Part shown: positions 24,127 through 29,114 of the stretch, one piece after another
Layout: every line of letters starts with the position of its first letter
Numbering within the stretch: the stretch's first letter is position 1
From: Anaerohalosphaeraceae bacterium
GTDB lineage: Bacteria > Planctomycetota > Phycisphaerae > Sedimentisphaerales > Anaerohalosphaeraceae
Direction of reading: 5' to 3'
Assembly (NCBI GenBank): GCA_037479115.1
Contig: JBBFLK010000004.1
Location: 62,001-126,000 of the forward strand
Length of the DNA: 64,000 bases
Position numbers and translations under genes: made by a program
The notes under the pieces: generated by a model
Database searches by the model: none
What the model saw: the letters and a program-made list of their open reading frames with translations, nothing else
Told to the model about the DNA's origin: nothing

Positions 24127-25629
24127 TTATGGAAGGATATTTTCGGCTTTTGGTATCCCGTAGAGCTGAAGAATCATCTGGTTAAACCGCTCCAGATTGT
24201 CTTTCGGAATGACGACGGTCGGATATCCCATTTCAAATTCCACAACATGGAAGGGCGAATCAGGAGATGCCTTCAGGGCAGCGGGAATATCAGTCATCTG
24301 GCCGATTTCCATGCCATTGATGCTTTTTACAACAATCCGTCCGAGATTTTGATACCCCAAATTGATATCGGCCGGAAGGACATAACTTAAAATAACAATC
24401 TCTTTACGGCCGGCAGGGGGGGTCATAGCCATGTTTCTATAGTAATGAAACAAATGAGGAGGCACTTTGCCCTGCCAGTTTTCCCCCCACAGACGAAGAT
24501 AATCGAGAGTCAGCTTTTGGAAAACATAGCCCCCTGTAATGAAATATTTGGGCTGCTTTCCATATTCCTGGTAGGGGACCAGCATTTCAGATGCGTCAAA
24601 CCGCATGCTTTTTCCGGCAAGCTCGATTTTTTTCCCATCTCGAAACACCGTAAAGGTTACCGGTTCATCAACCCGCCGGGAATGAATAAGATGCTCGTAA
24701 GATACCTTCTCGAAATCAGGATGCTGATACTTCCCAAAAGCATCAATCACTTTGCCGTTCAAGGCAAGAAGAACGTCCCCGGCTTTCAAAACATCACTTC
24801 CAGTCCCCTTTGCGTACACAACAGAGACATAGCAGCCATCCTTCATCTCTTCGGGAAGTTTCAGGTACCTTCGAACAGTCGGATCGACTAAGTCATATGT
24901 CTCAAATCCGGGCGTTCCATAGCCGCTATATTCTTTATTCTGTTCAGTCTCCCGCAAAAAAGAGACAACCGTTTGACTGGGGATAAGGGCAACTTCGGCC
25001 TCGGTGCTGTCAAAAGCGATTCCATAGACAGCACCCGTGCGGTCTGCAAAGACTTCGCCGCGGGAGGTCTGTCTGGAAGTGCTTGATAATACGAATGTTA
25101 GAGTTCGCTGATAGGATGTCGGGCAGCTTCGGACTATCACGCGGTCCAGAAAGCCGCGAGACGTTTTAACCGTTCCATCCGAAGCAAGCCAGTGGCCGGT
25201 CAGTTCCAGATTCTTCTTGTATTTGTCCTTAAACTCTGCGGGTTTCAGGGGGGCCGACAGGGCTTTTTCATCCAGTTTCAAAAGGCACAGGTTCAGGTCG
25301 TAATCAATCGCCTTGATTTCGGCGGGCACAAACTGCGCCTCCTGCTGGGTTTTGACTTGTACCAGCGTAGCATAAGCAAAGGGCTCTGCGAGGGTTACAA
25401 CTTCATAAGGCCCGACAGCCGCTCCAAAGCAAATCGCTGTCTGCGAGGGATTGCGCTTCCAGGGCTGAAAGAGGTCGTACCGGCTGCTGGCTATCTGAAT
25501 ATACACCAGTGAATCTTTGCTGACCGCTTCCTGAAGCTTTCGGGAATCAACCGAAGCTTCATATTGACGGCAGGAAACGCAAAGTCCGATAAAAATTATA
25601 GTTGCAGCAGTGTGAAGTATTCGTTTCAT
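24127..25629 (-). CDS. Catalytically degenerate HtrA/Deg-like lipoprotein paralogue with PDZ domains
   Basis: This 500-residue exported protein is a by-eye paralogue of the active protease upstream; both share the C-terminal pattern WGxNW, a (V/I)LSxxLPxxI-like segment and V..(V/I)NG. In the trypsin-like fold the catalytic His is replaced (VVTLAEPFAYA against LTNAHNV in the active protein), while the Asp (DYDLNLCLL) and a Ser in TSRGEVF remain and the NSGGP oxyanion loop is altered. The N-terminus ends in CVSC, a possible lipoprotein cleavage site at Cys20. Its ATG overlaps the stop of the active gene as ATGA, so the two are translationally coupled and may form a mixed complex. It ends just before the parS sites. 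Confidence 0.82.
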   Translation of the reverse strand: MKRILHTAATIIFIGLCVSCRQYEASVDSRKLQEAVSKDSLVYIQIASSRYDLFQPWKRNPSQTAICFGAAVGPYEVVTLAEPFAYATLVQVKTQQEAQFVPAEIKAIDYDLNLCLLKLDEKALSAPLKPAEFKDKYKKNLELTGHWLASDGTVKTSRGFLDRVIVRSCPTSYQRTLTFVLSSTSRQTSRGEVFADRTGAVYGIAFDSTEAEVALIPSQTVVSFLRETEQNKEYSGYGTPGFETYDLVDPTVRRYLKLPEEMKDGCYVSVVYAKGTGSDVLKAGDVLLALNGKVIDAFGKYQHPDFEKVSYEHLIHSRRVDEPVTFTVFRDGKKIELAGKSMRFDASEMLVPYQEYGKQPKYFITGGYVFQKLTLDYLRLWGENWQGKVPPHLFHYYRNMAMTPPAGRKEIVILSYVLPADINLGYQNLGRIVVKSINGMEIGQMTDIPAALKASPDSPFHVVEFEMGYPTVVIPKDNLERFNQMILQLYGIPKAENILP

Positions 25630-27107
25630 CGTGTCTGCTCCGGCAGGGGACTGACAGGGACATCGTATCGTTCAAGGATTTCCAGATGCCGTTGACGGGC
25701 CTTGACGGCATCGATCACCATTGGGGTCGGATTGCCCAGAAACTTCAAGACCCAAAAACCGTTTACATCCGTTGCAAGGGCCTTGTCCAAATCATCTAAC
25801 TCTTTTATCGGCAACCCGTTAACGGTTTCTACCGGCTGATGAACAAACCCGCCGACATACGTCGTCAGCTCATCCGGCAGGATGTCCGACAAAACTACAT
25901 ATTCCTTTCGTTTCGGGTCGTTATTCAGGTTTTGTACCTCATAGAAGAGGTAGCGAAGATAGAAGGGGATATCCGTAATCCAGTTTCGCCCCCACGATTC
26001 GAGATAATTGCGGTTCAGGGATACAAACGTCAGCCCGGCAAAGCACTTATATTTCGGCTGTACGTCAAACTGCCGACGAAACGTCAGTACGGGTTCGTTG
26101 TAATCGACCTTGATGTTGGCTTTGTGCTCTACTCCGTCGCGGTAGAAAACGACCTCGATGCTCTCGCCGATTTGTTTTTGTTCGACGGCCTCGGACATAT
26201 CGAGCATCAGGCCGTAAATGCGAATCATCCCATCGTTATCAATATCATAATCGCCGATTTTGGTCAGCACATCGTTTTTCTGCAGGATGCCGGAGGCGGT
26301 GCTGTTCAGGACGGTATCGAGAATCACGACGCCCTGGCGGTCTTCCGGGACTTTTAAGTACTGTTTCAGCCAAGGGTTATGAAGGCCTTCGAAGGTGAGG
26401 ATTCCTAAGGACCCAAAGCCGTCGTACCGGCCGTCTTCGATGTCCTTCAGGAAGTGTTCAATAACGGGCGTCGGGATCATAAATCCAATATTTTCCGCCA
26501 TTTGGAGGCCCTGAAAGGCCACGCCGACGACCTTGCCGTCCTGAAGGACCGGTCCGCCGGAGTTGCCGGGGTTGATGGCGGCGTCGGTCTGGATAAGCAG
26601 GTGCGAATCGGCCTGCGTATGACTGTAAATGCCTACCTCAATTCGAGATACGACGCCTTCGGTGATGGAGACCGTCCGGCCGCCCAGCGGAAACCCGCAG
26701 GTCTGCACGGTGGAATTGACCGCCGGCAGGGGGCCGAACTCCAGCGGAATCATATCGTCGTAAAACGTTGGGTCATAAACGGTTAAGACGGCCAAGTCGC
26801 AGTCGTGGCCGACAAACTCCACCCGGGCGGGGTAGCGTTTGGCGACATTCTGCTTTTGCACTTCGATGTAGCGGTAATTGCTGACGTTGTGCGCATTGGT
26901 CAGAATCCGTCGGCCGGCAATGACAAACCCCGAGCCGCTCCCGCGGGACATCGCGGTCTTTTTCCAGGGGTTGACATAATCGAAGTCCTGCTGGACAACA
27001 GTAATCTGGACGACGGACTTTTCATAAGTAGCTTGATTGGCAAAGACTTGTGTAAAGAAAATTGCGGTGAAAAACAAAATATGAAATCCGTTTCTGATAT
27101 TGTTCAT
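25626..27107 (-). CDS. Secreted HtrA/Deg-like serine protease with PDZ domains
   Basis: This 493-residue exported protein is a trypsin-fold (S1C) protease. The signal peptide covers residues 1-23. The triad is intact: His73 in LTNAHNVS, Asp104 in CDLAVL and Ser183 in NPGNSGGPV. A PDZ-like domain follows at about 235-340 and a second Deg9-like C-terminal domain at about 360-480. HtrA proteins degrade or refold damaged envelope proteins. GAGG eight bases ahead of the ATG gives the ribosome-binding site. It is the first gene of a two-gene operon with its inactive paralogue. Confidence 0.9.
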   Translation of the reverse strand: MNNIRNGFHILFFTAIFFTQVFANQATYEKSVVQITVVQQDFDYVNPWKKTAMSRGSGSGFVIAGRRILTNAHNVSNYRYIEVQKQNVAKRYPARVEFVGHDCDLAVLTVYDPTFYDDMIPLEFGPLPAVNSTVQTCGFPLGGRTVSITEGVVSRIEVGIYSHTQADSHLLIQTDAAINPGNSGGPVLQDGKVVGVAFQGLQMAENIGFMIPTPVIEHFLKDIEDGRYDGFGSLGILTFEGLHNPWLKQYLKVPEDRQGVVILDTVLNSTASGILQKNDVLTKIGDYDIDNDGMIRIYGLMLDMSEAVEQKQIGESIEVVFYRDGVEHKANIKVDYNEPVLTFRRQFDVQPKYKCFAGLTFVSLNRNYLESWGRNWITDIPFYLRYLFYEVQNLNNDPKRKEYVVLSDILPDELTTYVGGFVHQPVETVNGLPIKELDDLDKALATDVNGFWVLKFLGNPTPMVIDAVKARQRHLEILERYDVPVSPLPEQTR

Positions 27108-27461: not shown

Positions 27462-27490
27462 TTGAACAGGAATAAAAAAGACGATATAGT
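27462..27490 (+). promoter_or_regulatory. Candidate promoter of the AbiF-associated RNA
   Basis: TTGAAC (27462-27467) and TATAGT (27485-27490) are separated by exactly 17 nt. Transcription would begin near 27496, the first base of the predicted RNA fold. Confidence 0.65.
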
Positions 27491-27495
27491 TTATA

Positions 27496-27555
27496 GAGCA
27501 TACCCGCCGGGCCTCTGCTGAAAAGCATGCTCACTTCGGCGGGTTTTTCTTTTTT
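27496..27555 (+). ncRNA. Putative pseudoknotted antitoxin-like RNA upstream of abiF
   Basis: A roughly 60-nt RNA is predicted between a promoter and a T tract. GAGCA (27496-27500) can pair with TGCTC (27528-27532), and CCCGCCG (27503-27509) with CGGCGGG (27537-27543). The order a-b-a'-b' is an H-type pseudoknot. A small hairpin TGCT-GAAA-AGCA with a GNRA tetraloop (27516-27527) is nested inside, and the second long helix leads straight into TTTTTCTTTTTT. All pairings are perfect and can coexist. A structured RNA motif upstream of abiF-type genes is known; the match to that family is my inference from position and shape. Confidence 0.75.
27503..27555 (+). terminator. Intrinsic terminator shared with the AbiF RNA
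   Basis: The seven-base G/C helix CCCGCCG/CGGCGGG is followed by TTTTTCTTTTTT, ending 13 bases before the abiF start codon. It should limit readthrough into abiF, the arrangement seen in type III toxin-antitoxin loci. Confidence 0.7.
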
Positions 27556-27567
27556 CAGGGCTGCGGA

Positions 27568-28470
27568 ATGAAATACACAAAACCTCCACTGACTTTCGAG
27601 AAGCAGGCAGACCTCCTTTTAGAACGAGGAATGGAAGGAGACAGAAGGCAGATAATCGAACGTCTTTCTGTTGTGAATTATTACCGACTCAGCGGCTATT
27701 GGCATCCCTTTCGAGAAAGTGCTGACTGCGATGCCTTTAAACCCGGCACTTGTTTTGAAAACATCTGGAGGCGCTATACCTTTGACCGACGGCTCCGCTT
27801 GATTGTCATGGACGCCGTCGAACGGATCGAGGTTGCCGTACGTACACAACTTGCTTACCACCATTCTCATCTTGATGGAAATCCATTTTCCTTTGTCGAA
27901 AATCCTTCTCATCTGCCGGAACTGACATCGGAAGACCGTGCACGTTTCCTCGAAGACTTGAAACGAGATGCACAAAACAGCAAAGAGACCTTTGCCGAGC
28001 ATTTTCGAAAAAAATACGGAGACAGTCATTCCTATATGCCGGTCTGGATGAGCTGTGAAGTGATGACATTCGGCGGCATGCTTACTTTCTATCGGGGCTC
28101 TTCTGTTGAGATACAGAAAAAGATATCTTATTTCTTCAGTGTAACAGAAGAAGTGTTCAACTCCTGGCTGCTGACATTGAACGTGATTCGGAATATCTGT
28201 GCTCATCACGGACGGCTGTGGAATCGAGAGCTCGGGGTCAAACCCAAAATTCCTCGAAAAGACCCCCGCTGGCATCAGCCGGTCGAAGTAACCAATCATC
28301 GAATCTTTTCTGTCCTGTCAATCTGCAAGTTCTGCCTGGACAAAATTGCTCCGCAAAGTCAATGGCCGACACGTCTCAAACAGATGCTGAGCGACTATCC
28401 AGAAATTCCTCTGGGGAATATGGGGTTTCCGACAGAATGGCAAAACAGTCCTATTTGGAAAGAACCGTAA
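27568..28470 (+). CDS. abiF: AbiF/AbiD-type (Abi_2 family) HEPN abortive-infection protein
   Basis: This 300-residue protein matches the Abi_2 family: PPLTFEKQADLLLERGM and VVNYYRLSGYWHPF at the N-terminus, then FDRRLRLIVMDAVERIEVAVRTQL. The HEPN ribonuclease motif is RNICAHH (R-x4-H) within VIRNICAHHGRLWNR near residue 210. Family members cause growth arrest or abortive infection on phage attack, and relatives are considered kin of the Cas13 HEPN nucleases. AGGG ahead of the ATG gives a ribosome-binding site. A promoter, predicted pseudoknot RNA and terminator stand immediately upstream, so the RNA may act as its antitoxin. The region is more AT-rich than its neighbours. RNA cleavage is inferred. 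Confidence 0.92.
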   Translation: MKYTKPPLTFEKQADLLLERGMEGDRRQIIERLSVVNYYRLSGYWHPFRESADCDAFKPGTCFENIWRRYTFDRRLRLIVMDAVERIEVAVRTQLAYHHSHLDGNPFSFVENPSHLPELTSEDRARFLEDLKRDAQNSKETFAEHFRKKYGDSHSYMPVWMSCEVMTFGGMLTFYRGSSVEIQKKISYFFSVTEEVFNSWLLTLNVIRNICAHHGRLWNRELGVKPKIPRKDPRWHQPVEVTNHRIFSVLSICKFCLDKIAPQSQWPTRLKQMLSDYPEIPLGNMGFPTEWQNSPIWKEP

Positions 28471-28559: not shown

Positions 28560-29114
28560 ATGCCGCCCAAGTATGTCAAGACGATTCGGCAGGAATTGTA
28601 TTACGAGTACGCCAAGCTGATTTGCCGCAGCGTGTACGGCCGTGTCGAGCCCCATCGCGGATTCGTCACCGACCGCTACAAAAAACTGCAGGACGGACGG
28701 ATCACCATCTCCGGCACAATCCGGGAATGGCAGCGGGAACAGGAGCTTCCGCGGCAGTGCGTCTTCTGCAGCTCCGCCGAGAACCTGCAAACGGACCATC
28801 TCATTCCGCGCAGCCGCGGCGGGGCGGATTCGGCGGACAATCTCGTCCCGGCCTGTGCAGCCTGCAACGCCTCGCGCGGCGAGCAGGGCGTTTTTGCCTG
28901 GCTGGGTCTGAAAGAAAAAGACCGCCTGCATCGGCTGGTCGCCGGCAAATCCCTCAAGGAACTGTTCGACCTGCACGAACGCTGCGGCACGCTGGATGTG
29001 GACACCGACACCCTCCCCAGCCGCCTGTGCCCCGTCTGCAAGAATCCGCCCGTGTGCCGCCGCTGGAACAAAACCGGACAGCTGACGTGCTTTTGCCTGG
29101 AAGCGGTCTTCTGA
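28560..29114 (+). CDS. HNH endonuclease
   Basis: This 184-residue protein carries a beta-beta-alpha-metal HNH fold: CVFC (zinc pair), TDHLIPRSRGG, the conserved Asn in ADNLVPAC, and CNASRG (second zinc pair CAAC). A further CPVC...C pair near the C-terminus may bind another zinc. Similar proteins occur as stand-alone genes in many genomes and may be housekeeping or repair-related. It follows abiF by 89 bp on the same strand with AAGGAAA ahead of the ATG, so co-transcription and a role in defence are possible but not shown. Confidence 0.85.
   Translation: MPPKYVKTIRQELYYEYAKLICRSVYGRVEPHRGFVTDRYKKLQDGRITISGTIREWQREQELPRQCVFCSSAENLQTDHLIPRSRGGADSADNLVPACAACNASRGEQGVFAWLGLKEKDRLHRLVAGKSLKELFDLHERCGTLDVDTDTLPSRLCPVCKNPPVCRRWNKTGQLTCFCLEAVF

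Follow-up and report, generated by a model that had tools for sequence, protein, structure and literature searches.

The locus at positions 27462 to 28470 of the window (the whole 64-kb stretch of DNA analysed here, to which all coordinates refer) is a fresh instance of a known RNA toxin-antitoxin and phage-defence unit, not a new system. Its core, an AbiF HEPN gene together with its cognate abiF RNA, is supported by family searches, a match to the PbAbiF-ncRNA fold, an independent covariance model, covariation and the published work on AbiF. We favour the reading that it operates as a one-promoter AbiF toxin-antitoxin unit, to which we assign a probability of about 0.88. The Abi_2 gene is a 300-aa open reading frame (orf) that begins with ATG; upstream of it lie a promoter and then a GC-rich hairpin region followed by a T-run. 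The individual features are as follows.

27462..27490, plus strand: sigma70-like promoter, TTGAAC-N17-TATAGT (consensus scan and conservation in relatives)
about 27497..27550 (ends approximate), plus strand: abiF RNA transcript, presumed antitoxin and leader attenuator (RF03085 hit, model R1)
27503..27543, plus strand: abiF core (minimum-energy fold and covariation)
27503-27509/27537-27543, plus strand: outer helix, 7 bp, CCCGCCG/CGGCGGG (minimum-energy fold, covariation)
27510-27512/27529-27531, plus strand: inner helix, 3 bp, GGC/GCU (minimum-energy fold, covariation)
27516-27519/27524-27527, plus strand: apical TGCT-GAAA-AGCA hairpin (minimum-energy fold)
27532-27536, plus strand: 3' bulge (minimum-energy fold)
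27503..27555, plus strand: intrinsic terminator, formed by the outer helix of the RNA plus TTTTTCTTTTTT (sequence; same arrangement in homologues)
27568..28470, plus strand: abiF (Abi_2, HEPN) toxin gene, 300 aa, RNICAH with R208/H213 (PF07751, PADLOC, 8vz6, AlphaFold2 model)

AbiF protein and its abiF RNA

The initial annotation had recognised an Abi_2-family gene with an RNICAH motif, and every search of the protein agrees with this. The Pfam family Abi_2 (PF07751) matched with an E value of 5.5e-53 (180.4 bits against a gathering cut-off of 25.6), the PADLOC AbiD model with 2.8e-68, and the protein of PDB entry 8vz6 over its full length with 6.1e-49 at approximately 30% identity, whereby RNICAH is aligned with the 8vz6 motif. 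The AlphaFold2 model, computed with 20 homologues, has a pLDDT of 92.1, and its sole significant match in the PDB is again 8vz6, "PbAbiF dimer bound to ncRNA" (E 2.5e-19, TM 0.89/0.90). R208 and H213 are invariant in alignments A1 and A4 (10 and 20 homologues, respectively). Compared with the 92%-identical orthologue of the congener G004, dN is 0.037 and dS 0.321, indicating that abiF is under purifying selection. The kinship between AbiF and Cas13 that had been pointed out also stands, as published work locates AbiD/F proteins at the Cas13 root (PMC12165695). The locus thus documents an AbiF/abiF-RNA unit in Planctomycetota (Phycisphaerae) for a protein family with that position.

The outer helix ends about 24 bp before the ATG of abiF, on the same strand. 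The Rfam abiF RNA model (RF03085) aligns end to end with positions 27503-27544 but reaches only 26 bits, below its gathering cut-off of 37, so that a standard Rfam scan misses this RNA. We also searched with a covariance model, R1, that was made from eight more distant planctomycete RNAs, the window and its orthologues being left out; it recovered the RNA of this locus with 42.1 bits (E 4.5e-7) and gave no second hit in the 64-kb window or elsewhere in the genome. The recognition by the Rfam model proposed earlier therefore failed at the threshold, whereas the family assignment itself was borne out by the independent model. An alignment of the RNAs made by MAFFT (A3) had misplaced the 3' arm because the length of the bulge varies, and for this reason the covariance model was built from a group with equal bulges (A5).

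The low Rfam score is not peculiar to this locus: only 1 of the 18 planctomycete loci scanned reached the RF03085 cut-off, and several others scored below it. Despite these low scores, nearly all of the 18 show the abiF motif, and the Abi_2 genes of the planctomycete loci found are preceded by an abiF RNA in nearly every case. That most motif-bearing loci miss the cut-off hence reflects the reach of the Rfam model, not an absence of kinship; the current RF03085 under-calls the phylum, missing most of its members though the RNA is present. The window RNA shares with RF03085 the outer CCCGCC/GGCGGG helix, the inner RGC/GCU helix, the CUCU after the inner 5' strand, the 3' bulge and the placement upstream of abiF; two features set it apart, an apical loop with an extra GAAA hairpin and a G-U closing pair.

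Nested fold, terminator and promoter

The sequence strings from which a folded RNA had been proposed are all present: GAGCA at 27496-27500, TGCTC at 27528-27532, CCCGCCG at 27503-27509, CGGCGGG at 27537-27543 and the GAAA hairpin at 27516-27527. Folding of the RNA from 27496 to 27552 gave a z score of -2.9 (1 of 200 shuffles was as good), and its minimum-energy structure is the nested abiF fold, that is, the outer 7 bp, the inner GGC/GCU and the GAAA hairpin. Across the family the conserved fold consists of the outer helix, an inner XGC/GCY helix, an apical part of variable length and the 3' bulge. The compensatory changes that the initial annotation sought in the CCCGCCG/CGGCGGG helix were found, in the outer and inner helices alike: among 36 distinct homologues, 98.1% of the cells are paired and 7 of 9 pairs show double-sided changes, although the percentage is inflated, as the descriptor demanded outer-helix pairing, which does not account for the double-sided changes. 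The latter occur in 36 cells, and 0 of 500 shuffles reached any of the three helix values; as the sequences are related, shuffle counts such as these are not probabilities. The alignment (A2, 36 rows) leaves out duplicates and seven further rows (L028, L029, L034, L043, L066, L069, and L092), in most of which the descriptor had picked the wrong GC or the motif or register was doubtful.

Within the inner helix, two pairs are invariant, and the third is seen as C-G, A-U, G-U, G-C, and U-A, with six rows lacking a standard pair at this position. Our first RNA descriptor demanded this inner X-Y pair, which made the condition circular, and the search was therefore redone without it. With the relaxed descriptor, 34 of 47 homologues are paired at this position against 18.5 expected by shuffling, and none of 10000 shuffles was as high.

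The H-type pseudoknot that the initial annotation had drawn between GAGCA and TGCTC fared differently. In favour of this form as the active structure, in the manner of the type III antitoxin ToxI, the 5-bp complement is perfect in the window and in two congeners with nearly identical RNAs, and L030 likewise has 5/5 pairs. However, most homologues lack the pseudoknot helix: over 47 of them this type of pairing gives 0/5 pairs in 7, 1/5 in 15, and 5/5 in only 3. As a candidate helix it was rejected: 41.1% of its cells are paired compared with 39.9% after shuffling, and its covariation score is 0.070 compared with 0.071, which is chance level across the 36 homologues; comparison with shuffles at both fixed and free offsets gave no signal for this helix. 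On its 3' side, the pseudoknot would use bases that already belong to the conserved, covarying inner helix, and it is this inner helix that homologues retain. Where the inner helix is CGC/GCG, leaders like AACA offer no CGC and the pairing is impossible; the GAGCA strand itself starts at the deduced point of transcription start, and part of it may be missing from the transcript. Judged from these alignments, the pseudoknot is not conserved family-wide, and the nested structure is the one of minimum energy; we regard a ToxI-like active form as very unlikely.

A weaker variant of the same idea would be a switch confined to this genus, in which the nested fold binds AbiF and the GAGCA/TGCTC pairing removes the inner helix, freeing the toxin or altering termination. 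By our energy estimate for the pseudoknot, the loss of the inner helix costs approximately 3.4 kcal/mol, so a transient alternative pairing is energetically allowed, and the three congeners are too similar to argue against a lineage-specific pairing. Such a two-state switch nevertheless appears highly improbable to us.

The outer helix runs straight into TTTTTCTTTTTT, and the stem of the presumed antitoxin thus doubles as the terminator. Homologues have the same helix followed by a T-run, which the descriptor demanded. The proposed order of promoter, RNA, terminator, and toxin is thus present, but the terminator belongs to the RNA itself and is not the separate element after it that had been described.

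The -35/-10 pair with a 17-nt spacer noted earlier was retained as a putative promoter. TTGAAC-17-TATAGT has 9 of 12 consensus matches, a result that is weak by itself since the scan gives 5 hits in 600 bp against 0.8 expected. The position is kept: most of the planctomycete relatives have a TTGAAC/TATA-like pair similarly spaced from the RNA that follows it, and among three congeners promoter and RNA are kept while the remaining intergenic sequence has diverged. From the promoter spacing, transcription is predicted to start at about 27496-27498.

Proposed mechanism and its alternatives

The closest studied counterpart is AbiF-RCd22 of the Clostridioides difficile prophage phi027 (PMC12373285). 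It shares with the window locus an Abi_2 HEPN toxin with RNxCAH, an abiF-motif RNA directly upstream, a single promoter ahead of the RNA, and a terminator between promoter and toxin gene. RCd22 has two abiF motifs and a separate terminator hairpin, whereas the window has one motif whose outer helix is the terminator; RCd22 resides in a prophage, whereas the window unit lies among chromosomal housekeeping genes. The window AbiF shares about 31% identity with the protein of the related C. difficile phage phiC2. The C. difficile AbiF is toxic and loses its toxicity when R202/H207 are changed; an abiF-motif RNA binds and neutralises it, whether supplied in cis or in trans, and also causes premature termination ahead of abiF (PMC12373285). 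The second counterpart is PbAbiF with its ncRNA (PDB 8vz6; Zilberzwige-Tal et al. 2025), which shares full-length homology and fold and in which R210/H215 correspond to R208/H213; the comparison covers the proteins, which are about 30% identical. The PbAbiF dimer binds one ncRNA per monomer, which blocks its RNase (PMC12737573).

Family, fold, RNA family, covarying nested helices, promoter position, and purifying selection were computed here for the window locus. Since it has the same parts in the same order as the studied AbiF systems, the same mechanism is the best explanation. Transcription would begin just before the abiF RNA, and most transcripts would end at the T-run after the outer helix, yielding a short abiF RNA of about 50 nt, while a minority would read through into abiF. 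By analogy with the studied proteins, AbiF would dimerise through its HEPN fold, R208/H213 making up the RNase site. The abiF RNA, in its nested fold with the 3-bp inner helix and 3' bulge, would attach to each monomer and so block this site. Attenuation ahead of the gene, binding of RNA to protein, toxicity of the RNase, and antitoxin action at this locus would all follow the published systems, and the abiF RNA very probably keeps the AbiF toxin off here as well. Were the RNA supply lost, the RNase would be freed and growth would stop; a phage that shuts down or alters transcription is our assumed trigger, and an RNA target is likewise assumed.

We weighed whether the RNA might instead be a cis-acting leader only, a terminator hairpin that limits abiF expression and has no separate antitoxin action. 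In favour of this, abiF is immediately preceded by a terminator in the form of the outer helix, and the effect in C. difficile is partly transcriptional and in cis (PMC12373285). However, a terminator does not require the conservation seen in the inner helix and its fixed GC/GC strands, the C. difficile RNA binds the protein and works in trans (PMC12373285), and 8vz6 contains PbAbiF with its RNA, which together make a pure leader unlikely. A Cas13-like role, in which the RNA would guide the HEPN protein to its targets, is suggested by the position of AbiF at the Cas13 root, for which a guide capacity has been proposed (PMC12165695). However, the short apical part that varies is largely taken up by a self-paired hairpin and leaves no free spacer-like segment, and the AbiF RNAs described so far are inhibitory (PMC12373285, PMC12737573); we give this idea hardly any credence.

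The comparison with type III systems (ToxIN, AbiQ, TenpIN, CptIN) made in the initial annotation extends to the order of RNA, terminator, and toxin and, by homology, probably to an RNA that directly inhibits an RNase toxin. It ends there: type III toxins have the ToxN/AbiQ fold, whereas the window toxin has the HEPN/AbiF fold; their antitoxin is a tandem repeat array, whereas the window has one motif; and the ToxI-like pseudoknot finds no covariation in the window RNA. Of the lineage-specific novelty that had been anticipated, little was found beyond a single abiF motif fused to its own terminator. This compact layout, in which the antitoxin stem is the terminator, offers a small test piece for the coupling of antitoxin level and toxin read-through.

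Relatives and genomic surroundings

Abi_2 genes are sparse across the phylum (9 of 392 genomes), and the closest named relative comes from a metagenome-assembled genome labelled uncultured Phycisphaerae bacterium. In G000 and G004 the unit adjoins the same trypsin-PDZ gene, whereas the AbiF of G001 is a different one (about 50% identity), encoded in another genomic place and accompanied by an abiF RNA of its own. A relative of the same order (L005) has two tandem abiF motifs, at 2176-2216 and 2238-2279 on the minus strand, before one AbiF gene, in which it resembles RCd22. In G003, a contig (L117, G003:C55:141000-143854) stops 2 nt past an abiF RNA identical to that of the window; this 99%-complete assembly yielded no Abi_2 gene, and its toxin gene is possibly missing or merely unassembled.

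Upstream of AbiF in the Verrucomicrobia relative and the Marinobacter relatives found, no abiF RNA was visible. The AbiF genes at these loci (L014-L018 and L019) either lack the RNA or have it located elsewhere, and those of Marinobacter and relatives directly abut a preceding orf whose product by eye resembles the specificity subunit of a type I restriction system. With regard to a prophage link, viral contigs scanned with the single sequence gave no relative, and the alignment scan returned 67 relatives, the best of which is 46% identical.

We also searched the ten neighbouring proteins for defence systems and found no other such system; the only matches were those of one ParB neighbour, a weak one to a methyltransferase and one to an unnamed candidate model. 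A defence island was rejected for this locus, the surroundings being housekeeping genes. With no defence neighbours, a role in phage defence would be argued solely from membership of the AbiF family.

An HNH protein of 184 aa is encoded at 28560-29114, 89 bp past abiF on the same strand, and its HNH domain is nearest to that of IscB/Cas9d; an orthologue (90% identity) also stands behind abiF in G004, and no link with AbiF was seen elsewhere. From our own reading of the translation, a neighbouring GH76-type protein has a dockerin-like repeat at its end. On the minus strand, 24127-27107 holds two adjacent serine-protease/PDZ-type genes, the second of which (24127-25629) has no Pfam trypsin match, and a similar adjacent protease/PDZ pair is present in the congeners G001, G003, G004, and G005.
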